A program made the position numbers and the translations under genes. The notes beneath the pieces were generated by a model. It was not told the DNA's origin. It saw only the letters and a list, made by a program, of their open reading frames with translations, and did no database searches. DNA of 64,000 bases from Paeniglutamicibacter gangotriensis Lz1y (lineage in GTDB: Bacteria > Actinomycetota > Actinomycetes > Actinomycetales > Micrococcaceae), in NCBI RefSeq assembly GCF_000348945.1, contig NZ_AOCK01000001.1:310001-374000 (forward strand), written 5' to 3'. Positions 10,502 through 64,000 of the stretch are shown here, piece after piece. Within the stretch, counting starts at the first letter, position 1, and the number at the start of each line of letters is the position of its first letter.

Positions 10502-10505
10502 CCCG

Positions 10506-11829: not shown

Positions 11830-11896
11830 ACACGGATCCTAGTGATCGATGCGTGCTGGGCGTAGAGTGTGGCTACCGGACCACGCAGGAGGACAA

Positions 11897-12609: not shown

Positions 12610-12949
12610 GGGGACTGTCCTTCTACTTGAGTGGAGCCTGAGCGGCTGCGGGAGGGCTTCCCGAACCTATGATCCGTGGCTATCCGTACGGAGGCAATAG
12701 GAAAATCAGCAAAAAATCGAAGAGGTTCCAACTTCCTTCGGTGTTCTTCGCACGTAGCTACCTTGGCGTTGTTGAGGGGAACCTCGGGCGCCGAGATTCG
12801 GACGCGGGAACTGGCGGGACGGGTGCGTTGTGGGGTTCAACCGGGAGGATTTCTCCCCTAAGCTGGGAGTCGGATCGTGAACGGCGTCACTTGGGGCGCC
12901 GTCAGGGCTCCCATGCGTGGGAATTCCTGATCTCTGTGGAAGGCGAAAG
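12610..12949. other. intergenic region, no gene supported
   Basis: Between two divergently transcribed genes. Short open frames here have no SD and no recognisable composition. Presumably it holds the promoters of the VOC gene (-) and the GAF regulator (+). No clear palindrome was found. Confidence 0.5.
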
Positions 12950-16026: not shown

Positions 16027-16208
16027 GAGCCCATGATGCGCCGATCGGTACCCGTCGTGCGGCCCGAATGAGCAAATGTGGGGGGAAGTGAAACCACGAA
16101 AAGGCCCCGATGGGCCCCCTTGGTGGGATGAGAATCAGGAAGTCTTACCTGTTCTCGGGCGGGTATTCCGATGGCTCTTGGTACGAAGTTGATGGTGTTC
16201 CGAGGAAT

Positions 16209-16226
16209 GCAACGTTGCCGCAACGT
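16209..16226. promoter_or_regulatory. GCAACGT inverted/direct repeats upstream of aldehyde dehydrogenase
   Basis: GCAACGTTGC (16209-16218, a perfect palindrome) is followed at once by CGCAACGT, and ACGTTGC-C-GCAACGT (16212-16226) is also a perfect inverted repeat. Candidate operator for the GAF regulator encoded nearby. Confidence 0.45.
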
Positions 16227-16229
16227 GCC

Positions 16230-16245
16230 TGTGAGTAGGCTCACA
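16230..16245. promoter_or_regulatory. CRP/GlxR-type site upstream of aldehyde dehydrogenase
   Basis: TGTGA-GTAGGC-TCACA matches the cAMP-receptor consensus TGTGA-N6-TCACA perfectly, 45 bases before the ATG at 16291. Confidence 0.65.
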
Positions 16246-16290
16246 CTAAGTAGCAAGTTCACCACCCTCAATAGTTTCCAAGGAGTCGTC

Positions 16291-17814
16291 ATGACGGTTT
16301 ACGCCAACCCCAACACCGAAGGTTCGCTCGTCAACTTCAAGTCCCGTTATGAGCACTACATCGGTGGTCAGTGGGTGGCTCCGGTCAAGGGCCAGTACTT
16401 CGAGAACATCACCCCGATCACGGGCAAGGGCTTCTGTGAGGTCGGCCGCGGCACCGCCGAGGACATCGAAGCAGCACTAGACGCAGCAGAGGCTGCGGCC
16501 GGGCCGTGGGGCAAGACCAGCCCCGCCGAACGTGCGGTGATCCTGAACAAGATCGCCGATCGCATGGAAGAGAACTTGGAGATGCTGGCCGTCGCCGAGA
16601 CCTGGGACAACGGCAAGGCGGTCCGCGAGACCATCAACGCCGACATGCCGCTGGCCATCGACCACTTCCGCTACTTCGCCGGAGCCATTCGCGCCCAAGA
16701 AGGCGGCCTGTCGCAGATCGACGAGCACACCACCGCGTACCACTTCCATGAGCCGCTCGGCGTGGTTGGCCAGATCATCCCCTGGAATTTCCCGATCCTG
16801 ATGGCGGTCTGGAAGCTGGCCCCGGCGCTGGCAGCGGGCAACGCCATCGTGCTCAAACCGGCCGAGCAGACCCCGGTCTCGATCCTAGTGCTGATGGAAT
16901 TGATCGGCGACCTGCTCCCGGCCGGCGTGCTGAACGTCGTCAATGGCTTCGGGGTGGAGGCAGGCAAGCCGCTGGCCTCAAACAAGCGCATCCGCAAGAT
17001 CGCGTTCACCGGAGAGACCACCACCGGCCGGCTGATCATGCAGTACGCCTCGGAAAACCTGATCCCGGTCACCCTGGAGCTCGGCGGCAAATCGCCGAAC
17101 ATTTTCTTCGAGGACGTCGCCGATAAGGATGACGCGTTCTACGACAAGGCCAAGGAAGGCTTCACGATGTTCGCGCTGAACCAGGGCGAAGTCTGCACCT
17201 GCCCCTCGCGCGCACTGATCCAGGAATCCATCTACGATTCCTTCATGCCCGAGGTCATCAAGCGCACCGAGGCCATCAAGCTGGGCAACCCGCTGGACAC
17301 CGACACCATGATGGGCGCCCAGGCCTCCAATGACCAGCTGGAAAAGATCCTTTCCTACCTGGACATCGGCAAGGCCGAGGGCGCCAAGGTGCTCACCGGC
17401 GGCGGGCGTGCGGAACTTGGCGGGGACCTTGAAGGCGGCTACTACGTGCAGCCGACCATCTTCGAGGGCCACAACAAGATGCGCATCTTCCAGGAGGAGA
17501 TCTTCGGCCCCGTCGTCTCGGTTGCGAAGTTCTCCGGCTACGACGATGCGATCGAGATCGCCAACGACACCCTGTACGGGCTGGGCTCGGGAGTGTGGAG
17601 CCGCAACGGCAACACCGCCTACCGCGCCGGTCGCGACATCCAAGCCGGACGCGTCTGGGTCAACCAATACCACGCCTACCCGGCGCACTCGGCCTTCGGC
17701 GGCTACAAGTCCTCGGGCATCGGACGTGAGAACCACCTGATGATGCTCGATCACTACCAGCAGACCAAGAACCTGCTCGTCTCCTACTCGGAGGACAAGC
17801 TCGGCTTCTTCTAA
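16291..17814 (+). CDS. NAD-dependent aldehyde dehydrogenase (acetaldehyde type)
   Basis: 507 residues from ATG 16291 (AAGGAG seven bases upstream); a longer in-frame extension to 16171 crosses the operator region. Typical ALDH: NAD-binding [20 protein letters not shown] and FTGETTTGR, general base Glu in LELGGKSPN, catalytic Cys in [11 protein letters not shown]. The length and the NQGEVC signature match the AldA/ExaC acetaldehyde dehydrogenases found with an alcohol dehydrogenase and a DUF779 gene, as here. It likely oxidises acetaldehyde or other short aldehydes to acids in the cytoplasm. Regulation by the GAF protein and by a CRP/GlxR homologue is suggested by upstream sites. Confidence 0.93.
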
Positions 17815-18036
17815 ACCGGTTACGCCCGGACCGGGGCCGGCGGCAGCGACGCCGCCTTCCCCGGCCCGGACGGCCACCACGGCACCCACTGCAAACCCTT
17901 TGCAGCGATGAGCCATGCAACGACCCCCTGCAGCACTCTTTCCACCCCTTCCGCGGCGGCGCGGGATCGGGGTCTGGCACCGGCGACGGTGCATCCCCCT
18001 GTGCCCGCGTCACCGCACCAAGCAAAGGAAACAACC

Positions 18037-51156: not shown

Positions 51157-52206
51157 TCAGGTGCCGTAAAGAGTGACGGCGGTGGCCTTGAGAACGAAGT
51201 AGGCCTCCGTGCCGGGGACCAGCCCGAGGTCGGCCAACGCGGCAGGGGTGATGTCCGCGGCCAGCTCGCCGGCCCGCACCCGGATGGCATCCCCGTGCGG
51301 TTCCAAATCGGTGATCGCGGCGCGAAGCATGTTCCTCGGGCTGCCGTCGTGCGGCGGATCCAGATACACCGAGACCGCCGCGGGACGGAACGCCGCCGCC
51401 GCAGGGCCACCTGGTGGGAGCTGTTCCTCCGCGGTACCGGTGATAAGCCCGTAGCGGGTTTCGACCCCCTCGGCCCGGGCGGTGCCGGTGAGCAGGTTCA
51501 ACCCGGCCAGCCCCGCGGCAAAACCGGAGCGCGGCCTGTTCAGCACCTCGCGGGTGGCCCCGGCCTCGGACACCTGCCCGTCCTCCATGACGATGACCGA
51601 ATCTGCGAGCATCAGGGCATCAAGCACATCGTGGGTGACGATGATGGCGTTGCGGTCGGCCAGCACGTGCTTCAGCAGCCGGCGCATCAGGGGGGCGGCA
51701 TGGATGTCCAGGGCGGCCATGGGCTCATCAAGCAGCAATAGGTCCGGCCCCGCAGCAAGCGCCCGGGCCACCGCGACGCGTTGGGCCTGGCCTCCGGAGA
51801 GCTCGCCGGGGCGACGGTCCGCCAGCAGTTCGGTGTCGGTGGCCGCCAGCCAGTGTCGTGCGATGCTCCGAGATTCGGCCTTCGAAACACCCGTCGAACG
51901 CGGTCCGAAGGCAACATTCTCCAGGGCGTTCAGATGCGGGAAGAGCAGCGGGTCCTGGGCCAGCAGGGCCGTGCCGCGTGCGTGCGGGGCCAACCAGCGG
52001 TCCGGTGTGGAAGAAAAATCGAAGAGGGTGCGCCCGTTCAGGGTCGCCGATCCCGCATCGGGTTTCAGCAACCCCGCGATCACCGAGAGCAAGGTGGACT
52101 TGCCGGCGCCGTTGGGTCCCAGCACCGCCAGCGTCTCACCCGGGGCCATATCCAGTGCGATGTTGAAATTGCGTGCCTCCAGCGAGGCTTCGACTTGGAG
52201 GCTCAT
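51157..52206 (-). CDS. modC: molybdate ABC transporter ATP-binding protein ModC
   Basis: 349 residues from ATG 52206; a longer in-frame extension into modB is rejected. ABC core: Walker [14 protein letters not shown]-loop [13 protein letters not shown] signature [15 protein letters not shown], Walker [14 protein letters not shown]-loop [10 protein letters not shown]. The C-terminus (about 285-349) is a TOBE/Mop domain. It energises molybdate or tungstate uptake. It overlaps modB by four bases. Confidence 0.93.
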
Positions 52207-53021
52207 CGGGTGGCCCGCGCAAGGTGAGGCAACCGAGGGGATCGGTAGGACAGGGCCACGACGATCACGGCAACGGCCACCAACACCAGAGAAAGCGCCA
52301 CCGCGGCATCGGCATCGGTTTCCCGTTGCAGATAAATTTCCAGGGGAAGAGTCCGGGTGACGCCCTGGAGCGAACCGGCAAAGGTCAGGGTGGCGCCGAA
52401 TTCCCCCAGGCTGCGGGCGAAGGAAAGCACGGCTCCCGAAGCCAGACCGGGAAGGACCATCGGCAAGGTCACCCGGCGCAGCACCGTGGTGGGCCGGGCG
52501 CCGAGTGTCGCGGCCACCGCCTCGTACCTTCCCCCGGCGGTGCGCAGGGCACCTTCGAGGCTGACCACCAGAAAGGGCAGGGCCACGAAGGTCTGGGCCA
52601 AGACGACAGCGACTGTGGAAAACGCGATCTGGATGCCGGCCATTTCGAGACTGCTGCCCAGCAATCCCTGGCGCCCGAAGGTGTAGAGCAGGGCGATGCC
52701 GCCCACCACCGGCGGCAACACCAGGGGCAGCAGGACAAAGGCGCGCAGCAGGCGTTGACCCCGAAAATTGCCGCGGGCCAACACCAAGGCCAGCGGGACT
52801 CCGAGGATGATGCACAAGGCGGTGCTGGCCGCCGAGGTGCGCAACGACAGGCCCAACGCGGCAAGCGAAGCCTCTGAGGTGATCAGCGGAATGAACTCGG
52901 ACCAGTTGACCTTGGCCACCATGCCAAGAAGCGGAAGTATGACAAAGAGAGCGCCCACCGCCGCGAACACATAAAGCCAGCGGGGGACCGCGGTGTATCC
53001 GCTTCCGCTACGACGAAACAT
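52203..53021 (-). CDS. modB: molybdate ABC transporter permease ModB
   Basis: 272 residues, ATG 53021. Five or six membrane segments and the cytoplasmic EAA loop for ModC coupling, [21 protein letters not shown]. It lies three bases after modA and overlaps modC by four. Homologous to ModB and CysT permeases. Confidence 0.93.
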
Positions 53022-53024
53022 CCC

Positions 53025-53819
53025 CTAGCTCCGCGGGGTTCCGAAGCCGGCGGCGGAGAGCATCTTTTGGCCCTCCGGACCCGTGACCGAGGCGATGAAC
53101 GCATCGGCCAGCTTCTGATTGGAGCTGGTGCCCACGGTGGCAATCGGATAGCTGTTCACCGCGGCGGAAGACTCGGGGAACTCGATGCCCTTCACCTGGT
53201 CTCCGGCAGCCAGCACGTCGGTGACGTACACCAGCCCGGCGTCTGCTTCCCCGCTTCGCACCTTGCCCAACACATCGGTGACCGAGGATTCCTCGCTGAC
53301 CGGAGTCAGTACGAGGCGCGCTGCTTCCTCGATGGTCTTGGTTGCCGCCCCGCAGGGGACCTGCGGGGCGCAGATGACAACCTTGAGTTCGGGTTTGGTG
53401 AGGTCGGCCAGGGAAGAAACCTCGGCGGGGTTGGCCGGGGGAACAACGATCTGCAAGGTATTGGTCGCAAAGTCTATCGGGGTCCCGGCCACGAGGTCCG
53501 CATCGGCCAACTTGGTCATGTTTCGCTCGTCGGCCGAGGCAAAGACGTCCGCCGGAGCTCCGGCAATGATTTGGGTGACCAGATCGGAGGAGCCGGCAAA
53601 GCTCAGCTTAATCTCGGTGCCCGGGTGCTGCGCTTCGAAATCGGCGGCCAACTCGGTGAAGGGGCCGTTCAGAGAGGCCGCGGCAAATACGGTGATTTCA
53701 CCAGTTGGGCCGGAAATCGAGGTATCGGGGGTGTTGGTTTCCGCTGCGCAGCTGGCCAGTGAAACGGTCAGTGCCGCGCAGATGAACAGGGCTGCCGCAC
53801 TTCTTCCCAGGCGGTTCAT
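53025..53819 (-). CDS. modA: molybdate-binding lipoprotein ModA
   Basis: 264 residues, ATG 53819. Lipoprotein signal with lipobox LASC (Cys24), then a type II periplasmic-binding fold: GEITVFAAASLNGPFTELAADFE and FAGSSDLVTQIIAGAPADVFASAD, which contain the Ser/Ala oxyanion-binding residues, and LVYVTDVLAAGDQVKGIEFP. It binds molybdate outside the membrane and delivers it to ModB. Its start overlaps the stop of the HTH-Mop regulator by four bases. Confidence 0.94.
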   Translation of the reverse strand: MNRLGRSAAALFICAALTVSLASCAAETNTPDTSISGPTGEITVFAAASLNGPFTELAADFEAQHPGTEIKLSFAGSSDLVTQIIAGAPADVFASADERNMTKLADADLVAGTPIDFATNTLQIVVPPANPAEVSSLADLTKPELKVVICAPQVPCGAATKTIEEAARLVLTPVSEESSVTDVLGKVRSGEADAGLVYVTDVLAAGDQVKGIEFPESSAAVNSYPIATVGTSSNQKLADAFIASVTGPEGQKMLSAAGFGTPRS

Positions 53820-54226
53820 ATCGCGGCCGGTCCCTGCGGGGATTCGATGATGACGGTGGTGGCTTTAACGACTGCCGTGGCGATGGAGCCTAGCTTGAGG
53901 TCCAATTCGCGGGCGGCTTCGCTGCTCATCAGCGAGACAACCCGGAAGGGGCCGCATTGCAACTCGACCTGTGCCATGACGGTGTCCATCGTGATGCCGG
54001 TGACCAACCCGACGAACCTGTTGCGCGCGGAAGAACCGATGCGCGAGGGATTATCCGGCAGCTGGGCCTGGTTGCGTGCCAGTTGGGCCAGCTCGAGTCC
54101 GTCCACAGCCAGGCGCCCCGATGCGTCCTTGAATGGAGTCAGATTTCCGTTCTCGGTCCAACGGCGGATGGTGTCGTCGCTGACTCCTAAGAAGCGGGCG
54201 GCTTCGGACACACGGATCTTTGTCAT
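53816..54226 (-). CDS. HTH-Mop (TOBE) regulator, ModE-like function
   Basis: 136 residues from ATG 54226; the in-frame extension to 54325 has no SD. N-terminal excisionase/MerR-like helix-turn-helix (RVSEAARFLGVSDDTIRRWT, then ENGNLTPFKDASGR), followed by a single Mop/TOBE domain (about 68-132): NRFVGLVTGITMDTVMAQVE and ATAVVKATTVIIES, which binds molybdate. This is a compact actinobacterial molybdate-responsive regulator, smaller than the two-Mop ModE. It is translated together with modABC, and an inverted repeat lies upstream (54274-54293). Confidence 0.85.
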   Translation of the reverse strand: MTKIRVSEAARFLGVSDDTIRRWTENGNLTPFKDASGRLAVDGLELAQLARNQAQLPDNPSRIGSSARNRFVGLVTGITMDTVMAQVELQCGPFRVVSLMSSEAARELDLKLGSIATAVVKATTVIIESPQGPAAI

Positions 54227-54273
54227 ATCCACATAATGCCTCATATGCGGAAGCTTTGGCGTAATTCCGAAGC

Positions 54274-54293
54274 AAATACGAGAATTTGTATTT
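54274..54293. promoter_or_regulatory. inverted repeat upstream of mod operon
   Basis: AAATAC, eight bases, GTATTT, 48 bases upstream of ATG 54226 on the transcribed side. Candidate operator of the HTH-Mop protein. Confidence 0.45.
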
Positions 54294-54410
54294 CTCTGCA
54301 AGGCTGGTTGGGTCGATTCGGGCACGTTGCCCAGTGCCCAGGGGCTTCCCGATGAAGGGCGATCGTACGTTTGGGTTTCCTGGACGATAGTTGCAATGTC
54401 CGGTGCAGGG

Positions 54411-54878
54411 TTACTGCGGGAAAGCTATCCGAGCCAGCAGCTCACGCAGGGTCTCTTTCTCGGATTTGCTCAAGTTCGCCATGGCAATATCCTCGCCCTC
54501 CGCGGTGGCCACGCGAGCCTTCTTGTAGAGCTGCATGCCTTCGTTCGTGCAGGTGATGACCTTGGAGCGACGGTCGTTGGGATCGGCAGCGCGCCCGACC
54601 AGCCCCCGACTTTCCAGCTCGTCCACGAGCGGCACGATCTGGCTCGGATCCAGCAAGAGGAATTCGGCCAGTTCGCGCTGGGTGGGTGCCATGCCGCTGC
54701 AGGCGAGGGAAAGTACAGAGTAGGAGCGAACCTTCAGCCCCAGGGGACCGAGGAGCTTGTTGGCACGCGCGGAACCCAGTGAGCGGTTCCGGGCCGTGAG
54801 GAACTCTATTTCCCCTGCCAATTCGCTGGCCAGGAAGCGGTCAATGGTATTCGTGGTGGTGCCCGGCTTGGTCGCCAT
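54411..54878 (-). CDS. phdR: MarR-family regulator (PhdR/CouR-like)
   Basis: 155 residues, ATG 54878 (GAAGGG upstream). Winged helix: MAPTQRELAEFLLLDPSQIV, PLVDELESRGLVGRAADPND, with RRSKVITCTNEG as the wing. It is divergent from the phenylpropanoid operon, as are PhdR in Corynebacterium glutamicum and CouR in Rhodococcus jostii, which repress such operons and release DNA on binding hydroxycinnamoyl-CoA. A palindromic site overlaps the predicted operon promoter (54908-54927). The symbol is by analogy. Confidence 0.83.
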   Translation of the reverse strand: MATKPGTTTNTIDRFLASELAGEIEFLTARNRSLGSARANKLLGPLGLKVRSYSVLSLACSGMAPTQRELAEFLLLDPSQIVPLVDELESRGLVGRAADPNDRRSKVITCTNEGMQLYKKARVATAEGEDIAMANLSKSEKETLRELLARIAFPQ

Positions 54879-54907
54879 GGTGTCGCCCTTCGAGATCGAT
54901 AAGAAAC

Positions 54908-54927
54908 TTAATCGTTGACTTTATCAA
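54908..54927. promoter_or_regulatory. candidate MarR operator
   Basis: TTAAT...ATCAA-type inverted repeat (54908-54927), overlapping the -35 box TTGACT of the operon promoter. Consistent with repression by the divergent MarR protein. Confidence 0.5.
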
Positions 54928-54943
54928 GAGTTTACGTTGTTAT
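54915..54943 (+). promoter_or_regulatory. predicted promoter of the phd-like operon
   Basis: TTGACT (54915-54920), 17-base spacer, TGTTAT (54938-54943), then about 40 bases to the first start at 54983. Confidence 0.55.
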
Positions 54944-54982
54944 GTATGTAGCAAGGTTCCCACGACCGGGTCGGAGGGAGCA

Positions 54983-55939
54983 ATGAACACCCTTGAAGGA
55001 GCAGACATGTCACTGGCTGGAAAAGTTGCAATAGTTACCGGCAGCGGCCGTGGCCTCGGCCTGAGCTACGCCCAAGAATTGGCCCGCCAGGGTGCGGCAG
55101 TGGTCATCAACGATGTCGACGCAGACGTGGCAGCCGAGGCAGTTTCCTCGATCACCACAGCAGGCGGCAAAGCAGTATCCGTCGTCGCGCCCGTCGGTTC
55201 CACCGAAACCGCCAAGGCACTGGTTGCCTCCGCGGTGGAGAACTTCGGTCGCCTGGACATCTTGGTCACCAACGCCGGGGTACTGCGCGACAAGTCGATC
55301 CTTAAGATGAGCGACGAAGACTTCGATCTGGTCATCAACGTGCACCTGCGTGGAACCTTCACCTGCGTCCGCGAAGCCTATGGCTACTTCAAGGAAAACA
55401 ATATCGCCGGACGCATCATCACCATCGGTTCGCCCACGGGCCAGCGCGGTAACTTTGGCCAGACCAACTACGCAGCCGCCAAAGCCGGAATCGTGGGAAT
55501 GGTCCGCACCTGGGCCATTGAAATGAAGCGCGCCGGTATCACCGTCAACGCCGTGATCCCGGTGGCAGCCACCGCCATGACCAAGACCGTCCCCTTCTTC
55601 GCCAAGGCCGTCGAGGCCGACGAGCGCGGCGAGGCCATGCCGGACTTCTTCCGCAAGGAACTGGGTTTCGGTACCGCCGACGACGTCGCTGGACTGATCG
55701 CATTCCTCGCCTCGGAAGAGGCGGGCAATATCACCGGCCAGGCGATCGGTGCCGGAGGGGACCGCCTGCAGCTGTGGAGCCACCCGGAAGCCATAGCTTC
55801 CGAATTTCACGACGGCGGCTGGGATTACGCGACCTTGCAGGAACAGTTCGGTACGCTCTTTGGCGAGAAGTTGCAGTCCGTCGGCGAGCAGTTCCCTGAG
55901 CTGCCGGCCGAGCTGCAGCCCGAACCAGCAGCTAAGTAG
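54983..55939 (+). CDS. phdB: SDR 3-hydroxyacyl-CoA dehydrogenase, PhdB-like
   Basis: 318 residues from ATG 54983; a second in-frame ATG at 55007 also has its own SD (GGAGGG before 54983, AAGGAG before 55007). Classical SDR: VTGSGRGLGLSYAQELARQG, NAG motif, Ser in ITIGSPTGQRG, YAAAK. The C-terminal extension of about 50 residues (HDGGWDYATLQEQFGTLFGE) is longer than in simple SDRs. By gene order it matches PhdB, which oxidises the 3-hydroxy-3-phenylpropionyl-CoA formed by hydration of a hydroxycinnamoyl-CoA to the 3-oxo compound. First gene of the operon. Confidence 0.87.
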   Translation: MNTLEGADMSLAGKVAIVTGSGRGLGLSYAQELARQGAAVVINDVDADVAAEAVSSITTAGGKAVSVVAPVGSTETAKALVASAVENFGRLDILVTNAGVLRDKSILKMSDEDFDLVINVHLRGTFTCVREAYGYFKENNIAGRIITIGSPTGQRGNFGQTNYAAAKAGIVGMVRTWAIEMKRAGITVNAVIPVAATAMTKTVPFFAKAVEADERGEAMPDFFRKELGFGTADDVAGLIAFLASEEAGNITGQAIGAGGDRLQLWSHPEAIASEFHDGGWDYATLQEQFGTLFGEKLQSVGEQFPELPAELQPEPAAK

Positions 55940-55960
55940 TAAGGGATACCGGGTTAGAAA

Positions 55961-56854
55961 ATGAGCGTTCGCTACGAATCCAACATCGATCTCAACGCAA
56001 TCACCGCGATCGACATGCATGTACACCTCGAGGTCGATGACTGCGGGCACAAGGCCATGCCGGAAGACCTGTTCGAGGCCTCTGCGGCGTACTTCAAATC
56101 CGCTGAGCGCACCCCGTCGGTGGATCGGGTCGCAGAGGTTTATCGCGAGGCGAAGATGGCCGCGGTGTTGTTCACCGTTGACGCCCGCACCGCACTGGGT
56201 CACGAGCCGAACTCCATCGATGACCTGGTCGCCGGGGCGGCACGCAACAACGATGTGCTGATCCCCTTCGGTTCAGTGGACCCGCGCACCGGCCCGGCAG
56301 CGATCACCGAAGCCAGGCGCCAAGCGGACGTGCTGGGTGTGCGTGGTTTCAAATTCCACCCCTCACTGCAGGGCTTCGACCCGTCGTCGGCGGAATTTTA
56401 CCCCTTGTGGGAGGCGCTTCAGGAACTCGGGTTGCCGTGCATCTTCCATACCGGGCAGAACGGGATGGGCGCGGGGCTTCCCGGCGGGCGTGGCATCAAG
56501 CTGCGCTACTCCAACCCGCTGTTGCTCGACGACGTCGCTGCCGACTTCCCGGGGTTAACCATCATCATGGCCCACCCCTCGGTGCCGTGGCAGGACGAGG
56601 CAAACTCGATCGCCACCCACAAGGCCAACGTGTTCATCGACCTTTCCGGGTGGAGCCCAAAGTACTTCCCGGCCTCCTTGGTGAAGATGAGCAACAACGT
56701 CCTTGCTTCCAAGGTGCTCTTCGGCACCGATTACCCTCTGATCACCCCCGCGAAATGGCTGGCTGCCTTTGCCGATTTGCCGTTGAAGGACGAAGTGCGC
56801 CCCCGGATCCTCAAGGACAACGCGGTACGGGTGCTGGGACTGGACGGGTCATGA
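55961..56854 (+). CDS. phdC: amidohydrolase-2 family protein, PhdC-like
   Basis: 297 residues, ATG 55961. Metal-binding HxH near the start (AIDMHVHLEVDD), RGFKFHPSLQGF, CIFHTGQNG, AHPSVPWQDE and GTDYPLITP. This is the ACMSD/amidohydrolase-2 fold, with a Zn-type site. In the C. glutamicum phd and Rhodococcus cou systems the amidohydrolase-like protein cleaves the 3-oxo-3-arylpropionyl-CoA, giving the aromatic acid. Gene order SDR-amidohydrolase-ACAD-MaoC matches phdBCDE exactly. Its stop overlaps the start of the next gene by four bases. Confidence 0.85.
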   Translation: MSVRYESNIDLNAITAIDMHVHLEVDDCGHKAMPEDLFEASAAYFKSAERTPSVDRVAEVYREAKMAAVLFTVDARTALGHEPNSIDDLVAGAARNNDVLIPFGSVDPRTGPAAITEARRQADVLGVRGFKFHPSLQGFDPSSAEFYPLWEALQELGLPCIFHTGQNGMGAGLPGGRGIKLRYSNPLLLDDVAADFPGLTIIMAHPSVPWQDEANSIATHKANVFIDLSGWSPKYFPASLVKMSNNVLASKVLFGTDYPLITPAKWLAAFADLPLKDEVRPRILKDNAVRVLGLDGS

Positions 56855-58038
56855 CCGATTTCTGCCCCAGCGACCAATACAGTTTCGCCAGGCTGCTCAC
56901 CGACGCCGAACGCGCGGCGCTGCTGCGCCTGCGCGCGGTACTTGATGAACATGTCCGCCCGGTTCTCAGCGACCATTGGGAGCGTGGGGAATTCCCCGAA
57001 GCGATCATCGACCCACTGGTTCAGCTGGATCTGATGCGCCCGGCCGAGGTACTGGCCGCCGGCGAAAAGGTCCGTGGCCTCTTTGACGGCTTCAGGAACT
57101 TCGAACTGGCGCGCGTCGATGCCTCGGTAGTCACCTTCTACAATGCCCAGTCCGGGCTGTTCCGCACCGCCGTGAACCTCGGCGGCAGCCCCGAACAGGT
57201 AGCCGAACTGGATCCGCTGATCGCTTCCTACGCCTACAAGGGCGTCTTTGCCCTGACCGAACCCGAGCACGGCTCGGACATCGCCGGGGGACTTGATACG
57301 CGGGCCACCTTCGTGCCGGGCACCGACGGTGGGCACTGGGTGATCAACGGCGCCAAACGCTGGATCGGTGGCGCAGCCCAGGCCGACGTGCTGGCGGTCT
57401 TCGCCCGCGACACCGCGGACAGCAAGGTCAAATGCTTCCTAGTACCCACCGACGCGCCGGGCCTGACGATGAGCAAAATCGAACGTAAGACCTCGTTGCG
57501 GATCATGCAGAACGCCGACATCGAGCTGAAAGATGTGTCGGTACCGGCCTCGGCACGGCTGGCAAACATCAACTCCTTCGCCGACGTCGCGGCCTGCCTG
57601 CGCAATATGCGCTCGGACGTCGCCTGGATCGCCGCGGGGACCGCAGCGGGCGCCTACGAGGCGGCACTGAAATACGTCACCGAGCGACAGCAGTTCGGCA
57701 AACCCTTGGCTTCCTTCCAGTTGATCCAGGAAAAGCTGGCCACCATGCTCACCAACGTCACCGCGTCGCTGGCCATGGTCGTCAGCCTGACCCAGGCGCA
57801 GGACGAGGGCATCTACAAGGACGAGAACTCGGCCATGGCGAAGATGTTCACTGCGCGCATGCTGCGCCAGACCGCCGCCCTGGCCCGGGAAGTCTGCGGA
57901 GGCAACGGCATCGTGCTCGACTACGACGTGGCCCGTTTCCATGCCGACGCAGAAGCCATCTATTCCTACGAGGGCACCGACGAGATCAATGCGTTGATCC
58001 TCGGCCGGGCCATCACCGGCATCGGGGCCTTCCGTTAG
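56851..58038 (+). CDS. phdD: acyl-CoA dehydrogenase, PhdD-like
   Basis: 395 residues from ATG 56851 (ATGA overlap with the amidohydrolase). ACAD fold: TEPEHGSDIAGGLDTRA, WVINGAKRWIGGAAQADVL, RQQFGKPLASFQLIQEKLATM, and the catalytic base Glu in YSYEGTDEINALILGRAITG. The glutaryl-CoA-dehydrogenase-like ending with YEGT is typical. It likely dehydrogenates arylpropionyl-CoA (dihydrocinnamates) to cinnamoyl-CoA. FAD-dependent; the electron acceptor is presumably electron-transfer flavoprotein, not encoded here. Confidence 0.88.
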   Translation: MTDFCPSDQYSFARLLTDAERAALLRLRAVLDEHVRPVLSDHWERGEFPEAIIDPLVQLDLMRPAEVLAAGEKVRGLFDGFRNFELARVDASVVTFYNAQSGLFRTAVNLGGSPEQVAELDPLIASYAYKGVFALTEPEHGSDIAGGLDTRATFVPGTDGGHWVINGAKRWIGGAAQADVLAVFARDTADSKVKCFLVPTDAPGLTMSKIERKTSLRIMQNADIELKDVSVPASARLANINSFADVAACLRNMRSDVAWIAAGTAAGAYEAALKYVTERQQFGKPLASFQLIQEKLATMLTNVTASLAMVVSLTQAQDEGIYKDENSAMAKMFTARMLRQTAALAREVCGGNGIVLDYDVARFHADAEAIYSYEGTDEINALILGRAITGIGAFR

Positions 58039-58108
58039 CGGGCTCGACGCCCCCCCGATTGTTTTTCCTTATGTTTCAAGACCAACCACTTTAGAAGGAG
58101 TACCCATC

Positions 58109-58564
58109 ATGGGCCAGACAGTTCTTTCCTACGAGCAGCTCGCAACCGCCGCCGGCACCGACCTGGGCTACAGCGAATTCCGCACCGTCACCCAGGAGCA
58201 GGTCAACACGTTCGCGGATGCGACAGATGACCACCAGTGGATCCACACCGACCCGGAAAAAGCCAAGGATGGACCCTTCGGTGGACCGATCGCCCACGGC
58301 TACCTCTCGCTGAGCCTGCAGATCGCGTTCTGGTCAGAGCTCTTTGACGTCACCGGTGTCTCCACCCGCGTCAACTACGGGCTGGACAAGGTCCGCTTCC
58401 CCTCGCCGGTACCGGTGGGCGCGAAGATTCGCATGAAGGCACAGATCGCGGAGGTCGAAGAGGTTAAGGGCGGTTATCAGATCGCCGTGGACCAGGTCGT
58501 CGAGGTTGAAGGCGCACCGAAGCCGGCCGTGGTTTCCCGCGGCATCTACCGCTTCTACGCCTAG
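58109..58564 (+). CDS. phdE: MaoC-like enoyl-CoA hydratase, PhdE-like
   Basis: 151 residues, ATG 58109 with AAGGAG SD. Hotdog fold with FADATDDHQWIHTDPEKAK, containing the Asp and His of the R-hydratase motif, and GGPIAHGYLSLSLQI. It likely hydrates cinnamoyl-CoA to 3-hydroxy-3-arylpropionyl-CoA. It fits the fourth position of phdBCDE. A hairpin and a CRP-like site lie after it. Confidence 0.87.
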   Translation: MGQTVLSYEQLATAAGTDLGYSEFRTVTQEQVNTFADATDDHQWIHTDPEKAKDGPFGGPIAHGYLSLSLQIAFWSELFDVTGVSTRVNYGLDKVRFPSPVPVGAKIRMKAQIAEVEEVKGGYQIAVDQVVEVEGAPKPAVVSRGIYRFYA

Positions 58565-58572
58565 AAAACGTC

Positions 58573-58612
58573 TTAACGGTCGGGAACCCGAGAGGGTTTT
58601 CCCGGCCGTTGC
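58573..58612 (+). terminator. possible weak terminator after the MaoC gene
   Basis: AACGG-(T)-CGGGAACCC pairs with GGGTTTTCCCG-(G)-CCGTT with a small bulge and one GU pair. There is no T-tract after it, so it may only dampen read-through to the SBP gene. Confidence 0.35.
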
Positions 58613-58720
58613 CGTATCCGCGTTCGGGTGAATCGCGCGATCTATCGTCACATTCAGAAGTTCACGCTTTAGAAAACGACAACTATTGATTTCTTCAACG
58701 ATTAAGCTTAGATTGTCGTA

Positions 58721-58736
58721 TGTGGCAGGGGTCACA
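58721..58736. promoter_or_regulatory. CRP/GlxR-like site upstream of the first substrate-binding protein
   Basis: TGTGG-CAGGGG-TCACA, 9 of 10 fixed positions of TGTGA-N6-TCACA, 57 bases before ATG 58794. Confidence 0.45.
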
Positions 58737-58793
58737 ATAACTCGCGGTTGGGGCATAGTCGCCTGGGCCATCATTTTTCACCAAGGAGCATTC

Positions 58794-59792
58794 ATGAAGA
58801 AGCGTCTGTCTACCATTTTCGCCGGGGCATCGATTGCGGCGCTCGCCTTGACCGGATGCGGCCAGGGCTCGCCCTCGGGCTCTGGATCCACCGACGAAGC
58901 CTCGTCCGGCGGATCCGACGCAAGTGGACTGACCAAGGTCGTCGTCGGGGTCCTACCCATCGCTCCTTCGGTAGCTGTGAAGTACGGAATCGACAACGGC
59001 ATCTTTGAAAAGCACGGCCTTGATATCGAGCTGACCACCAGCTCCGCCGGCGCAGCAATGCTCCCGGCAGTTTCCACCGGTGATTTGAACTTCGCCGTTG
59101 GCAACCCGCTCTCGGTACTGACCGCAGTGGACAAGGGTCTGGACATGAAGATCGTCTCAGGATACTCGGACTCCAAGGCCGAGGGCGATGACATCAATGG
59201 TGTGGTCGTGCGCGGCGATTCGGGCATCAAGACCTTTGCGGATCTGGCCGGCAAGACCACGTCGGTCAATGCCCTCAAGACCCAGGGTGACCTGACCATC
59301 ATGGAATCCGCCGCCATCGACGGCGGGACCCCGGGCGACCTGAAATTCTCCGAGATGCCCTTCCCGGACATGGAGGCTCAGCTTGATCGCAAGAACGTGG
59401 ATGGGGTGTGGTTGCCGGAACCGTTCCTGTCCAAGGCCCTAGCCAACTCGGATAATGAGCTGCTGGGCTACCCAAACCAGAAGGCCATTCCAGGCCTACC
59501 GACCATGGTCAGTTTCACCAGCGGCAAGTTCGCTGAGGAAAAGCCTGAGGTCGTCGCCGACTTCAAGGCAGCCATGACAGAAACCCTCGCCGCCGCCGAA
59601 GATGACCAGACCGGGGCCAAAGCCCTGCTGCCGGAGTTCATGAAGATGGACCCCAAGGTCGCTGAGACCCTCAAGATGGAAACTTGGGACGGCGCGGTTC
59701 CCACGGAGCAGCTGAGCAAGCTGGCGGAACTCGCCGCAGAGCACAAGTTCCTGTCCAAAGCACCGGACGTCGACGCCATGACGGTCAAATAA
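58794..59792 (+). CDS. ABC transporter substrate-binding lipoprotein (NMT1/SsuA-like), copy 1
   Basis: 332 residues from ATG 58794 (CAAGGAG upstream). Lipoprotein signal ending in LTGC (Cys22), then a Gly/Ser-rich tether and a type II binding fold of the nitrate/taurine/thiamine-precursor type: VGVLPIAPSVAVKYGIDNGI, STGDLNFAVGNPLSVLTAVD, FPDMEAQLDRKNVDGVWLPE. Located between the MaoC gene and the CoA-ligase gene, without its own permease; the shared permeases are 2.6 kb downstream. Expected ligand: a hydroxycinnamate or arylpropionate. Followed by a stable hairpin. Confidence 0.9.
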   Translation: MKKRLSTIFAGASIAALALTGCGQGSPSGSGSTDEASSGGSDASGLTKVVVGVLPIAPSVAVKYGIDNGIFEKHGLDIELTTSSAGAAMLPAVSTGDLNFAVGNPLSVLTAVDKGLDMKIVSGYSDSKAEGDDINGVVVRGDSGIKTFADLAGKTTSVNALKTQGDLTIMESAAIDGGTPGDLKFSEMPFPDMEAQLDRKNVDGVWLPEPFLSKALANSDNELLGYPNQKAIPGLPTMVSFTSGKFAEEKPEVVADFKAAMTETLAAAEDDQTGAKALLPEFMKMDPKVAETLKMETWDGAVPTEQLSKLAELAAEHKFLSKAPDVDAMTVK

Positions 59793-59816
59793 TCCTGAGA
59801 ACAAACGTACGAAAAG

Positions 59817-59842
59817 GTGTGCCGGCCTTGGGGCCGGCACAC
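59817..59842 (+). promoter_or_regulatory. stable hairpin after the first substrate-binding protein gene
   Basis: A perfect 11-bp stem (59817-59827 with 59832-59842), loop TTGG, no T-tract. Hairpins in this position often raise the level of the binding-protein message over downstream genes. Confidence 0.55.
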
Positions 59843-59857
59843 GCGAAAGGCACCCCC

Positions 59858-61402
59858 ATGCATAATCAAGGACTCGGCGGCTGGATCCACAAGCGACGCA
59901 TCAAGTCGCAGCACCACGCAGCAGTCATCGAGGGCGAGAAGTCCCTGAGCTATGCGCAGCTAGCAACCCGCATCGACAAGCTGGCCAACGCACTTCGCCA
60001 GTTGGGTGTGGAGAAGGGAAGCAGAGTTGCCTACTTGGGCAACAACCATTCCGCCTTCCTTGAAACTCTCTTTGCCGCCGGCGGCATCGGCGCGATCTTC
60101 GTCCCGCTCAACACCCGGCTCACTCCACGCGAACTGAACTACGCGTTGACCGACTCCGGCAGCACCGTGCTGATCAGCTCGGCCTCCCTTGACGACCTGG
60201 CTCAGGCAGCCAAGGCCGACAGCCCCGTGGTGCACCATCTGGTGCTGGCCAATGAGCCGGGCGCCGACTCGGACTATGAACGGGCACTGTCGAACGCGGA
60301 CGCCGGATACCAGGACGTTGCGGTGGAGCACGAGGATCCTGCCATCATCCTGTACACCTCCGGAACCACCGGGCAGCCCAAGGGCGCGGTGCTGACCCAC
60401 GGGAACATGACCTGGAATTCGCTGAACGTCTTGGTCGACTACGACGTGACCAGCGATTCGAAGGCCCTGATGATCGCACCGATGTTCCATGTTGCCTCTC
60501 TGGGCATGGGCGCTCTGCCGACACTGCTCAAGGGCGGCACCCTGGTGCTGCAGGATCGCTTCGAGCCCTCCGCGGTGCTCGCGGCGATCGAACACCACTC
60601 GATCACCTCGCTCTCCGGGGTCCCGACCACTTATCAGCTGCTGGCCGAGCATCCCGCCTGGGCCACCACCGACATTTCCTCGCTGCGCATGCTCACTTGC
60701 GGCGGATCCGCCGTCCCGATGCGTGTGCTTGAGGCCTACGAACGGCGGAACCTAGGGTTCTCCGGCGGCTATGGCATGACCGAGACCGCTCCGGGGGTCA
60801 CCTCCCTGCAGGCCGAGCGTTCCCGTTCCAAGGCCGGATCGGCCGGGCTGGCGCACTTCTTCACCGATGTGAGGATCGTTGATCCGGTCGGGAACGAGCT
60901 GCCGGCCGGTGAAGCCGGCGAAATCCTGATCTCGGGGCCGAACGTGATCAAGGAATACTGGCAACTGCCCGAGGCCAGCGAGGTGGCCTTCATCAACGGA
61001 AACTGGTTTCGCTCCGGGGACATGGGGTATCTGGATGAGGAAGGCTTCCTCTACATCTCCGACAGGCTCAAGGACATGATCATCTCCGGTGGGGAAAACA
61101 TCTATCCCGCAGAGGTCGAACAGGCCATCATGGAATTGGACGGGGTGGGTTCGGTGGCGGTCATCGGCGTCCCGGATGAGAAATGGGGTGAGGTGCCGCG
61201 GGCCATCGTAGTCCCGGTCGAGGGGGCGGAGATCACCGCGGAAGAAATCAAGGAACATCTGGCCGGGAGGCTGGCCCGATACAAGATCCCCCGAACGGTA
61301 GTGCTCACCGACGACTTTCCACGCACCGCCAGCGGCAAGATCCGCAAGACCGATCTGCGCAAGACATTCGGCGGTTCCACACCGCCGGCACACATCCTGT
61401 AA
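59858..61402 (+). CDS. phdA: AMP-forming acyl-CoA synthetase (hydroxycinnamate-CoA ligase, PhdA-like)
   Basis: 514 residues from ATG 59858; an in-frame extension to 59684 overlaps the SBP gene. ANL superfamily: P-loop-like LYTSGTTGQPKGAVLTHGN (about 165-185), GYGMTETAP, SGDMGYLDEEGFLYISDR, and the C-terminal catalytic Lys in PRTASGKIRKTDLRK. It activates a carboxylic acid to the CoA thioester. Position in a phdBCDE-type operon suggests p-coumarate, caffeate, ferulate or 3-arylpropionates. It sits between two binding-protein genes, coupling uptake and activation. Substrate not proven. Confidence 0.9.
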   Translation: MHNQGLGGWIHKRRIKSQHHAAVIEGEKSLSYAQLATRIDKLANALRQLGVEKGSRVAYLGNNHSAFLETLFAAGGIGAIFVPLNTRLTPRELNYALTDSGSTVLISSASLDDLAQAAKADSPVVHHLVLANEPGADSDYERALSNADAGYQDVAVEHEDPAIILYTSGTTGQPKGAVLTHGNMTWNSLNVLVDYDVTSDSKALMIAPMFHVASLGMGALPTLLKGGTLVLQDRFEPSAVLAAIEHHSITSLSGVPTTYQLLAEHPAWATTDISSLRMLTCGGSAVPMRVLEAYERRNLGFSGGYGMTETAPGVTSLQAERSRSKAGSAGLAHFFTDVRIVDPVGNELPAGEAGEILISGPNVIKEYWQLPEASEVAFINGNWFRSGDMGYLDEEGFLYISDRLKDMIISGGENIYPAEVEQAIMELDGVGSVAVIGVPDEKWGEVPRAIVVPVEGAEITAEEIKEHLAGRLARYKIPRTVVLTDDFPRTASGKIRKTDLRKTFGGSTPPAHIL

Positions 61403-61417
61403 GGACACCGAAACAGC

Positions 61418-62392
61418 ATGAAAAACAAACTCACACTCGCAGTTGCAGCATTGGGGATTCTGGCACTGAGCGCTTGCGGATCAGGCTCGCCTAGTGGTGG
61501 CGCCGATAGCTCCGCCGATGCCGGGGGAGACCTGGAGAAGATCACCGTGGGCGTGATCCCGATCGTTGACACCGCCCCGATCTTCCTCGGGGATTCTAAG
61601 GGCTTCTTTGAAGAGGAAGGCCTAGACCTAGAAATCCAGACCGCCACCGGCGGATCGGCGATCGTTCCCGGAATCCAGTCCGGAAGCTACGACTTCGCCT
61701 TCTCCAACTACGTTTCGCTCATGGTCGCCAACGACAAGGGCCTGAACATGAAGGTCGTCGCCAACGGCGTCACCACCACCGGGGACGCGGACACCGACTT
61801 CGGTGCCGTGGTGGTCACCGACGACTCGCCGATCAAGACTCCGAAGGACCTGGCCGGAAAGAAGGTCTCGGTCAACAACCTCTCCAACATCGGAGACATC
61901 ACCGTTTCCCAGGTGGTCAAGGACGATGGCGGAGACCCCAGCACCGTTGATTTCGTCGAGGTCCCGTTCCCGGATGCCCCGGCAGCACTGGAAAACGGCA
62001 TCGTGGACGCCGCATGGATCCTTGATCCCTTCCTCGTCCAGTCACTGGGTGATGGGGCACGGGTGGTCAGCAACAACTTCGTGGACTTCGACCCTGAACT
62101 GGACATCGCCGGGTACTTCACCTCCGCCGAGAAGGTCAGCACGGAACCCGAACAGACAGCCAAGTTCCAGCGTGCCATGAACAAGTCGCTTGAATACGCG
62201 CAGGAGCATCCTCAGGAGGTCCGCGACATCGTGGGCACCTACACCAAGATCGACGCGGACACCCGCGAGGAACTTGTGCTGCCGCGCTACCGCGTAGACA
62301 TCAACACCGAGGCTGCACAGAAGCTCGGCGACGCCGCCCAGGAATTTGGTGCCATCACCAAGCCCGTTGACCTCGAAACCCTGTTGCCATGA
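61418..62392 (+). CDS. ABC transporter substrate-binding lipoprotein (NMT1/SsuA-like), copy 2
   Basis: 324 residues, ATG 61418. Lipobox LSAC (Cys20). Same fold and similar sequence to the protein encoded at 58794, for example VGVIPIVDTAPIFLGDSKGF and SGSYDFAFSNYVSLMVANDKG, FPDAPAALENGIVDAAWILDP. It overlaps the first permease gene by four bases, so it is the binding protein most tightly tied to the permeases. The two paralogues may widen ligand range. Confidence 0.9.
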   Translation: MKNKLTLAVAALGILALSACGSGSPSGGADSSADAGGDLEKITVGVIPIVDTAPIFLGDSKGFFEEEGLDLEIQTATGGSAIVPGIQSGSYDFAFSNYVSLMVANDKGLNMKVVANGVTTTGDADTDFGAVVVTDDSPIKTPKDLAGKKVSVNNLSNIGDITVSQVVKDDGGDPSTVDFVEVPFPDAPAALENGIVDAAWILDPFLVQSLGDGARVVSNNFVDFDPELDIAGYFTSAEKVSTEPEQTAKFQRAMNKSLEYAQEHPQEVRDIVGTYTKIDADTREELVLPRYRVDINTEAAQKLGDAAQEFGAITKPVDLETLLP

Positions 62393-63228
62393 CCCAAATG
62401 ACTGAATCGTCGACGCGGGCCGCGGCGAAGGTGAAAGTCTCCCGTGCGCCCTCCAAGGGTTGGCCGAAGTGGGTGCTGGGTCTGATCGGCATCGTGGTGT
62501 TCCTGGGTTTCTGGGAGCTGATGCCGATCCTGGGGGTGGTGCAGGCCAAGTACCTGCCCCCGGCCTCCGAGGTCATCGCGGCCCTCATCGCAGATCTGGG
62601 CTTCACCGCGTTCTGGGTTGCCGTGGGCGACACCCTGCTGGCCTGGGCCATCGGCTTGGTCATCGCGGTGGTTGCCGCGTTGATACTGGGATTGGTCATT
62701 GGGATGTCGCCGTTCCTGCGCCGTTTCAGCAACTCGAGCATTGAATTCCTGCGTCCGATCCCTTCGGTGGCATTGATTCCGTTGGCGGTGTTGCTCTTTG
62801 GCATCAAGATCGAGTCCTCGCTGCTGCTGATCGTCTACGCGTGCTTCTGGCAGGTGCTGATCCAGGTGCTCTACGGGGTGGCTGATGTGGACAACGTGGC
62901 CATGCAGACCGCGAAGTCCTACGGGTTCTCCTATGTGCAGCGGGTCCGGGACGTCGTGTTCCCCACGATGCTGCCGTACCTGATGACAGGTATCCGGTTG
63001 GCTGCCTCGGTGGCGCTGATCCTGGCGATCACCGCGGAGCTGCTGATCGGTTCCCCGGGGTTGGGTCGGGAAATTGCCCTGGCCCAGTCCGGTGGAGCGA
63101 TTTCCGGGATGTACGCGCTGATCCTGGCGACCGGATTCCTTGGGGTGGCGATCAACTCGGTGACGCGGATAGTTGAGAAGCGGGTCCTGTCCTGGCACCC
63201 GTCGGTTCGCGGGGAGGCAACGGTATGA
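62389..63228 (+). CDS. ABC transporter permease (NitT/TauT type), first
   Basis: 279 residues, ATG 62389 overlapping the binding-protein stop by four bases. Six membrane segments and the coupling EAA loop region AKSYGFSYVQRVRDVVFPTM. Typical SsuC/TauC-like permease. The N-terminus has a basic cytoplasmic lead (RAAAKVKVSRAPSKGWPK). Probably works as a heterodimer with the next permease. Confidence 0.92.
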   Translation: MTQMTESSTRAAAKVKVSRAPSKGWPKWVLGLIGIVVFLGFWELMPILGVVQAKYLPPASEVIAALIADLGFTAFWVAVGDTLLAWAIGLVIAVVAALILGLVIGMSPFLRRFSNSSIEFLRPIPSVALIPLAVLLFGIKIESSLLLIVYACFWQVLIQVLYGVADVDNVAMQTAKSYGFSYVQRVRDVVFPTMLPYLMTGIRLAASVALILAITAELLIGSPGLGREIALAQSGGAISGMYALILATGFLGVAINSVTRIVEKRVLSWHPSVRGEATV

Positions 63229-63998
63229 AAACCCTGAAATCTGTTGGCTACCTGCTCGGGTTGCCCGTCATTTTGCTGCTCTGGTGGTGGATCGGGACCT
63301 CTGGGGAAGCGAACTTCTTCGTCCCCACGCCCGCGAAGCTGGTGACCACGTTCATCGACACCTGGTTCGGGGAGCGGATGCTCACCGACGTTTTGCCGAG
63401 CATCATGCGCCTGGTGGTCGGGGTGTTGGCCGCGATCGTGCTGGGCATCGTGCTGGGACTCGCGGTGGGGTTGAACCGTACGATGCGTGCGGTGACCGAG
63501 CCGGTCTTCGAGTTCTTCCGTGCGCTGCCGCCACCGGTGTTGGTTCCGGTGTTGATGCTGTTGGTGGGCATCAACGACGGGATGAAAATCGCGGTGATCA
63601 TCTCCGGCTGTGTCTGGCCGGTACTGCTGAACACCATCGAGGGCGTGCGTTCCATCGATCCGGTGCAGAACGAAACCTCCAAGTCCTACGGGATCACCGG
63701 ATTCTCCCGGATCCGTTATCAGATTCTTCCCTCGGCAACCCCGACCATTATGGCCGGGGTCCGCCAGGCACTGTCCATCGGGTTGATCCTGATGGTCATC
63801 TCCGAAATGTTTGCCTCGTCCTCCGGGCTGGGATTCACCATCGTGCAGTTCCAGCGGTCCTTCGCGGTCCCGGAAATGTGGTCCGGCATCGTGGTGTTGG
63901 GGTTGATCGGTGTGGCCCTGTCCTTTATTTTCCAATGGGTTGAACGGCGCGTGCTGCGCTGGTACCACGGCCTGAAAGAGGTTGAAAATGCAGTCTGA
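63225..63998 (+). CDS. ABC transporter permease (NitT/TauT type), second
   Basis: 257 residues, ATG 63225 overlapping the preceding stop by four bases. Six hydrophobic segments; EAA loop TSKSYGITGFSRIRYQILPSA. It completes the membrane part of the importer. The following gene starts at 63988 in another frame. Confidence 0.92.
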   Translation: MKTLKSVGYLLGLPVILLLWWWIGTSGEANFFVPTPAKLVTTFIDTWFGERMLTDVLPSIMRLVVGVLAAIVLGIVLGLAVGLNRTMRAVTEPVFEFFRALPPPVLVPVLMLLVGINDGMKIAVIISGCVWPVLLNTIEGVRSIDPVQNETSKSYGITGFSRIRYQILPSATPTIMAGVRQALSIGLILMVISEMFASSSGLGFTIVQFQRSFAVPEMWSGIVVLGLIGVALSFIFQWVERRVLRWYHGLKEVENAV

Positions 63999-64000
63999 GA
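63988..64000 (+). CDS. next gene of the importer operon, only its start is in the window
   Basis: ATG 63988 lies ten bases before the permease stop, preceded by AAGAGG. Only four codons are visible. By operon logic an ABC ATP-binding subunit is expected here; the sequence itself cannot show this. Confidence 0.35.

Follow-up and report, generated by a model that had tools for sequence, protein, structure and literature searches.

The stretch of 64,000 nucleotides of Paeniglutamicibacter gangotriensis Lz1y analyzed here, called the window below, is C1:310001-374000 of a genome of 4.32 Mb in 20 contigs. Its end carries the genes of an ATP-binding cassette (ABC) importer of the NitT/TauT class, preceded by genes for the degradation of hydroxycinnamate side chains. 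We consider it probable, at roughly 0.77, that this complete importer supplies a cou/phd-type pathway with hydroxycinnamates (coumarate, ferulate, and related acids) from outside the cell, and that it belongs to a CouR-like regulon in this genome. Two lipoproteins, binding protein 1 (BP1) and binding protein 2 (BP2), would catch the aromatic acids outside the membrane and pass them to a common pair of permeases driven by one ATPase. The coenzyme A (CoA) ligase encoded between the two receptors would trap the acid as its CoA ester, and this ester would free a MarR repressor from two operators, thereby turning on uptake and catabolism together. The genes of the importer, and a third binding protein (BP3) encoded further downstream, are the following, in window numbering:

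58794-59792, + strand: BP1, NMT1-type lipoprotein of 332 aa with lipobox LTGC
59858-61402, + strand: CoA ligase of 514 aa, predicted feruloyl-CoA-synthetase-like hydroxycinnamate CoA ligase
61418-62392, + strand: BP2, NMT1-type lipoprotein of 324 aa with lipobox LSAC
62389-63228, + strand: permease 1, BPD_transp_1, ATGA overlap with BP2
63225-63998, + strand: permease 2, BPD_transp_1, ATGA overlap with permease 1
63988-64851 (L009:13988-14851), + strand: ABC ATPase, ABC_tran, of which only 63988-64000 is inside the window
66703-67728, likelier start 66730: BP3, after a divergent ligM gene

The first-pass annotation, made from the window alone, had described two NMT1/SsuA-like lipoproteins flanking a CoA ligase and followed by two permeases with ATGA overlaps, and this arrangement is present as claimed. 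The ATPase gene starts inside permease 2, at 63988, and ends just past the window end; with this gene found across the border, the importer is complete. BP1 has an upstream region of its own, a gap of 229 bp behind a maoC-like gene, and the genes from BP1 onwards would form a single transcript.

By its family scores, the importer is of the NitT/TauT class, in agreement with the first-pass annotation. The binding proteins match NMT1 (PF09084) with 136.6 bits for BP2 and 68.2 bits for BP1 (cut-off 20.5), the permeases match BPD_transp_1 with 79.9 bits for permease 1 and 89.3 bits for permease 2 (cut-off 26.4), and the ATPase matches ABC_tran with 122.4 bits. The best named relatives are SaoP, TauC, and SsuC for the permeases and SaoA and TauB for the ATPase, all with scores under the equivalog cut-offs. 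Against SsuA_fam, BP2 scores 112.1, BP1 95.2, and BP3 129.4 bits, all short of the curated cut-off of 163.5, and the scores of the importer to the taurine models are far under their curated cut-offs. At E up to 0.001, the Pfam matches of BP1 and BP2 are to NMT1, NMT1_2, OpuAC, and Phosphonate-bd only. The solved relatives of the binding proteins include taurine, sulfonate, nitrate, and THI5-like proteins, and no CouP-named protein is among those listed. Tests for an SsuABC sulfonate importer, by the SsuA_fam cut-off, and for a binding protein of the CouPSTU type both failed.

The genes upstream of the importer form, as judged by family models and not gene by gene against Corynebacterium glutamicum or Rhodococcus jostii RHA1, a cou/phd-type pathway for hydroxycinnamate side chains. 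They are headed by a short-chain dehydrogenase/reductase (SDR) gene and lie divergent from a regulator:

54411-54878, - strand: MarR-family regulator, CouR-like, 155 aa, divergent from the pathway genes
54983-55939, + strand: SDR dehydrogenase of cou/phd-type pathway, adh_short_C2 164.2 bits, gene order conserved
55961-56854, + strand: amidohydrolase, CouO/PhdC-like, Amidohydro_2 184.0 bits
56851-58038, + strand: acyl-CoA dehydrogenase-like enzyme, Acyl-CoA_dh_1 117.6 bits
58109-58564, + strand: MaoC-like hydratase, MaoC_dehydratas 96.8 bits

Family models and solved relatives place the whole cou/phd gene set in the locus, namely the CoA ligase, the SDR, the acyl-CoA dehydrogenase-like enzyme, the MaoC-like enzyme, and the amidohydrolase. 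The best solved relatives of the CoA ligase are 8weu (528.8 bits), deposited as a fatty-acyl-CoA synthase, and 8wev (528.0 bits), a feruloyl-CoA synthetase; the next one scores 344.8. The phdBCDE genes encode the same four enzyme kinds (SDR, amidohydrolase, acyl-CoA dehydrogenase-like, and MaoC-like). They constitute the phenylpropanoid pathway of C. glutamicum (PMC5948850; this and the other papers cited here are drawn on in part), and CouO of RHA1 is the amidohydrolase of the last step of side-chain removal (PMC4737184). The regulator has 3fm5 and 5cyv as best solved relatives, at 92.6 bits each with the next one at 42.3, and both are CouR of R. jostii RHA1 (PMC4737184).

Two predicted operators would tie the importer to the pathway:

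54907-54927, - strand: CouR-type operator 1, in the marR/SDR intergenic region
58686-58706, + strand: CouR-type operator 2, upstream of BP1 and the importer unit, in the maoC/BP1 gap

The two intergenic regions have in common the 12-mer TCAACGATTAAG. In the window, the pattern TTGATNNNNTCAACGATTAAG is matched twice and without any mismatch, where 0.04 matches are expected in shuffles at up to 3 mismatches. The site before BP1 reads tATTGA-TTTCT-TCAACg and is of the box type TTGA-N5-TCAA; the CouR box is cATTGA-N5-TCAATg and the effector of CouR is p-hydroxycinnamoyl-CoA (PMC4737184). The marks of a CouR regulon found in the window are a CouR-like MarR protein and TTGA half-sites 5 bp apart, both at the pathway promoter and before the transporter. 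No promoter-like site came out of a sigma-70 scan of 54700-59900. Genome-wide, the looser pattern TTGAYNNNNTCAAYG matches 24 times, three of the sites being counted once per strand, compared with 3 for the reversed-pattern control; these matches mostly have G+C-rich spacers, so single matches elsewhere were not taken as regulon members. The shared operator sequences suggest that the importer belongs to a CouR-like regulon in this genome, with the repressor presumably binding at both sites.

We then turned to the relatives of these genes in 149 genomes of the family, the window's own included. Matches were found in 62 genomes for BP2 (E up to 1e-20), 66 for the amidohydrolase (1e-30), 59 for permease 2 (1e-50), and 51 for BP1 (1e-30). 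At a score of at least 300 bits, permease 2 is present in 51 copies in 49 of the 149 genomes. Of these 49, 47 also have the amidohydrolase, which occurs without permease 2 at this score in another 19 genomes (Fisher 8.9e-21). The two genes are on one contig in 38 genomes and at most 30 kb apart in 33. For BP1, the same threshold gives 57 copies in 46 genomes, all of which carry the amidohydrolase (46/46), and 41 of the 57 copies lie within 10 kb of it. Outside the family, among 248 order-level genomes, permease 2 (1e-60) is found in 20 and the amidohydrolase (1e-60) in 35.

To describe the loci themselves, we used 60 pathway loci, which come from 59 of the 65 amidohydrolase genomes other than the window's own. 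Of these loci, 37 encode a binding protein of the group and 23 do not, and the arrangement with binding proteins is seen in named loci of Arthrobacter, Cryobacterium, and Nesterenkonia. Among the 23 loci lacking it, 10 have a carrier of the major facilitator superfamily (MFS), of the metabolite:H+ symporter (MHS) type, on the pathway strand; nine of these carriers are directly downstream of maoC and the one of L104 is upstream. Two further loci without a binding protein (L061, L105) have the MHS carrier on the opposite strand, and several meet a contig end soon after maoC (L101, L103). An exchange in which the ABC system always takes the place of the MFS carrier was also considered, but both are present in six binding-protein loci, so we gave this idea up. 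Among 15 core stretches sampled outside the family (L197-L210, L216), where the core is the permease/ATPase set, pathway genes lie within 15 kb in three (L197-L199), with ligase and amidohydrolase only in L199. The linkage with phd-like genes, whose absence from relatives would have spoken against the proposal of the first-pass annotation, is found again in different genera and, outside the family, in a small number of genomes. Not all homologues are tied to hydroxycinnamates in this way; such a tie characterizes this family and a few others.

The operator recurs as well. In 73 loci, with the window locus left out and deduplication done by hand, we counted boxes near the pathway; gene starts were estimated from reference lengths, and all counts ignore shared ancestry. 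In the 300 bp before the SDR gene, 67 of 72 loci have a box, and so do 17 of 28 pathway-linked ABC-core units before their first gene. If 450 bp are allowed, the latter count becomes 21 of 28, a width picked after the 300-bp result, as four permease-led units had their box slightly further upstream. At 300 bp the CoA ligase has a box in 16 of 58 cases and the MHS carriers in 4 of 18. Control genes in the same loci have one in 2 of 351 cases, many of these controls being operon-internal. For promoter-bearing controls (VanA, PadR, LigM, BP3, MFS, plus orphan binding proteins elsewhere), the count is 2/92 at 300 bp and 2/91 at 450 bp, which compared with the core units gives Fisher p-values of 1.6e-11 and 2.2e-15, respectively.

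Away from the pathway the picture is different. We examined 16 family core units in L157-L196, off pathway genes or beyond 20-kb pathway stretches, some of which (L173, L174, and L177, for instance) were counted as away at 15-26 kb from the pathway. A box stands at the first gene of L182, L184, and L185, and also of L183, whose upstream region is cut by a contig end. These four belong to one genus (G104, G037, G135, G084), all start with BP1, and their genomes also carry a box at the SDR gene (L078, L095, L090, L088). L177 has a box before BP2 and none at its first gene. We had taken the boxes at these four unlinked cores as a possible proof that the core follows the regulon everywhere, and dropped this idea, as they make up only 4 of the 16 away units; the same recount lowered our confidence in the hydroxycinnamate reading from 0.80 to 0.77. 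Hence, boxes go with BP1 and with units linked to the pathway, and the core as such sometimes lies outside the regulon.

Several observations weigh against the hydroxycinnamate reading. The box is missing at 11 of the 28 pathway-linked core units at 300 bp and at 7 of the 28 at 450 bp, and among the 16 family core units away from the pathway, 12 lack it at their first gene. Outside the family, 12 of the 15 core stretches have no pathway genes nearby and 14 of the 15 no box at the core, the exception being L197 (the single box of L216 is not at the core). In Rhodopseudomonas palustris, the five tested proteins of the same class as the binding proteins here (COG0715) had asparagine, malate, citrate, guanine, or thiamine-like compounds as ligands, and aromatics were bound by proteins of other classes (PMC3223731). 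Lastly, other carriers are at hand: L065-L070, six of the 37 binding-protein loci, also have an MHS carrier on the other strand (L074 has a weak match), and an aromatic-acid MFS carrier is encoded downstream in the window's own genome (L008:8236-9612, some 8-10 kb past the window end; 334.4 bits to TIGR00895, under the cut-off of 418.55).

Some of these points would fit a core that is a general aryl-carboxylate importer, with BP1 and BP2 serving benzoate-type products or further aryl acids of plants (vanillate, protocatechuate, phthalate-like) and with hydroxycinnamates as minor substrates, a reading that we consider unlikely but worth weighing. Apart from the boxless cores away from the pathway, it draws on non-pathway neighborhoods, which were picked as high-ranking matches and not randomly. 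The genome of the window has a second importer core (L007, C14:1000-20000, at 1745-17875; permease 2 71% identical) that adjoins genes for a cupin dioxygenase, a fumarylacetoacetate-hydrolase-like protein, an FAD monooxygenase, and a CoA ligase, a gentisate-like set by reading of the translations. Two plasmids, one of Paenarthrobacter aurescens TC1 and one of Arthrobacter crystallopoietes (BP2 at 55% identity), have core relatives next to genes for PdxA and a ring-hydroxylating dioxygenase, clusters that we take to be terephthalate-like. Further core relatives stand beside a gentisate-type cluster in Rhodococcus antarcticus and beside a hydroxyphenylpropionate/hydroxycinnamate hydroxylase gene in Variovorax. 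In the plasmid match H21 (26% identity), genes for a ring-hydroxylating dioxygenase follow about 3 kb beyond the permeases, and no aromatic cluster was recognized around the plasmid match H7. The neighbors of eight order-level stretches were listed, and some neighbors of seven were scanned. In L216 (3559-14749), the core lies with two adjacent open reading frames of the tannase family, a LigK aldolase (302.5 bits, cut-off 179), and a further gene read as an amidohydrolase; this may be an uptake system of the same type for gallate. The scanned neighbors include a catechol 2,3-dioxygenase relative in L210, a PaaX-like regulator in L205, and an amidohydrolase in L202, and no aromatic genes were seen among the neighbors scanned in L201, L206, and L209.

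The surroundings of BP3 point the same way. Beyond the window, a block of methoxy-aromatic genes (L008, C1:374001-394000, at 1023-9612) holds ligM, BP3, a methylenetetrahydrofolate-reductase-like gene, a VOC gene, a PadR regulator, vanAB-like genes, and the MFS carrier mentioned above. The ligM product scores 895.3 bits to the LigM model (vanillate/3-O-methylgallate O-demethylase; cut-off 580), and the vanAB label is a reading of Rieske oxygenase and reductase genes. What argues for hydroxycinnamates as the main substrates, instead of aryl acids in general, is that the operator before BP1 is of the type whose effector is a hydroxycinnamoyl-CoA, that BP1 and BP2 flank the gene of a feruloyl-CoA-synthetase-like ligase, and that a CouR-type box was found in 0 of 17 BP3 relatives and 1 of 27 orphan binding proteins. 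With none in its relatives, BP3 may answer to another regulator.

It is also conceivable that uptake is mainly the work of MFS carriers, with the ABC system scavenging the same acids or backing the carriers up in a partly redundant way. The downstream MFS carrier and the six related loci with an MHS carrier divergent from the pathway speak for this arrangement, but 30 of the 37 binding-protein loci have no MHS match in the fetched stretch (the rest of those genomes was not searched for carriers), so that there is no general nearby partner, and we regard it as very improbable. An even smaller probability goes to an importer of sulfonates, taurine, or thiamine precursors that stands in the cluster by chance. 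Its nearest curated name is indeed SsuA_fam and its solved relatives include the sulfonate, taurine, nitrate, and THI5-like proteins listed above; yet the curated cut-offs are missed, and both the linkage and the operator recur near the pathway.

The number of binding proteins suggests how BP1, BP2, and BP3 may relate to the core. Counting receptors at about 186 bits or more to BP2, or at least 300 bits to BP1, we listed 170 receptors for 51 cores in 49 genomes, with two or more receptors per core in 44 of the 49. A looser E limit of 1e-20 gives 220 receptors for 51 cores, and in L157-L196 the 6 kb around 27 of the 49 receptors are free of core genes. This surplus suggests that one core is shared by several receptors, with the limit that more distant cores under our thresholds could serve some of them. 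In the tree, 57 of the 67 tips of the BP1 clade (support 1.0) have a maoC-like gene no more than 6 kb away, although a pathway gene had served to fetch many of these loci. For the BP3 clade (support 0.845), a LigM relative is this close to 13 of the 31 tips. A BP2 clade was not supported in the tree (support 0.0), and we make no claim on the descent of BP2. A tentative extension, to which we give slightly less than an even chance, is that of a hub importer, in which one permease/ATPase core would work with interchangeable receptors, each tuned to another plant aryl acid, and would be under CouR-like control inside the hydroxycinnamate cluster. BP1 and BP2 would then serve hydroxycinnamates, BP3, beside ligM and vanAB, methoxybenzoates, and many orphan receptors would be scattered in the genome. 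If so, new aromatics would be gained by copying a receptor gene and not a transporter.

The locus resembles the cou/phd systems of R. jostii RHA1 and C. glutamicum in its CoA ligase, its side-chain enzymes with an amidohydrolase, and its MarR repressor of the CouR/PhdR kind. It differs in transport, for which those systems have CouT or PhdT whereas a NitT/TauT-class ABC importer with two binding proteins is found here. The first-pass annotation had drawn this contrast with MFS carriers. The gene couT is a transporter gene, CouT and PhdT are MFS transporters, and the MHS kind of MFS carrier occupies the same slot in relatives. The literature describes PhdT as a phenylpropanoid permease (PMC10576375) and places couT in the CouR regulon, with a CouR-type box in front (PMC4737184). 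The mechanism of PhdR has been reported (PMC7593625), and a ferulate transcriptome names other transporters (PMC9701309).

CouPSTU of R. palustris differs in the class of its binding protein, as BP1 and BP2 match NMT1-related families and none of CouP's kind. CouP is of the branched-chain-amino-acid-like kind. The likeness lies in an ABC importer, a CouR-controlled cluster, and a binding protein for coumarate, ferulate, caffeate, and cinnamate (PMC3610893, PMC3223731); CouP binds coumarate, caffeate, and ferulate at nanomolar level (PMC3610893), and the binding of coumarate and ferulate is also given for it as RPA1789 (PMC3223731). SsuABC and TauABC have the same Pfam domains in binding protein, permease, and ATPase, and differ from the importer here, which scores under their curated cut-offs and has two distinct permease genes. 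SsuC and TauC are single permease genes. The phthalate system OphFGH of Burkholderia and SsuABC of Pseudomonas putida have been placed in the TauT family (PMC3223731), and PatDABC of R. jostii is a proven importer of phthalate esters (PMC13188901). OphFGH, SsuABC, and PatDABC have in common with the window the ABC uptake of aromatics, PatDABC being likened by function alone; their ligands are phthalates or sulfonates, and the parts of these papers used here mention no CouR-type control. No OphFGH or PatDABC sequence was identified among the 40 plasmid records listed.

The claim that such a pairing is undescribed was too broad, given that TauT-family importers of phthalate and aromatic sulfonates are in print (PMC3223731). 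It stands for hydroxycinnamates, for which no NitT/TauT importer was found described among the literature matches listed (titles and abstracts; the class name with its slash is not searchable). What is new is the combination of class and substrate, the CouR-type operator, and the receptor surplus; class and substrate are each already known. Uptake has received little attention as a step in how bacteria, above all Gram-positive ones of the soil, use lignin-derived acids, and the knowledge of aromatic transporters comes mostly from Gram-negative bacteria (PMC6486533). If our reading is correct, a high-affinity, ATP-driven importer would explain how Micrococcaceae scavenge hydroxycinnamates at low concentration, strain engineers would have a ready importer, and proteins now named sulfonate or taurine transporters would be due a second look.

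A few minor observations complete the analysis. Relatives of BP1 at 87-89% identity occur in Paeniglutamicibacter terrestris, P. quisquiliarum, P. sulfureus, and P. psychrophenolicus, among others. Eight Arthrobacter loci (L127-L130, L132, L135, L136, L141) carry BP1 and the CoA ligase, some also with SDR and MaoC-like genes, and have no listed match to the amidohydrolase or acyl-CoA dehydrogenase references; it is possible that they hold a variant side-chain pathway. A possible in-frame TGA in the amidohydrolase genes of four order-level genomes turned out to be simply the regular stop codon at the end of the gene. At 51157-54325 on the - strand of the window, between the pca/pob genes and those for hydroxycinnamates, lies what by reading alone is a modABC-like molybdate ABC importer with a small helix-turn-helix gene of the molybdenum-binding type. 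Finally, one further feature lies between BP1 and the CoA ligase:

59817-59842, + strand: perfect inverted repeat of 11 bp, with no T run on the + strand

The fold of 59793-59862, which contains this repeat, has a z-score of -1.97, and the hairpin may set the ratio of BP1 to ligase mRNA rather than terminate transcription.

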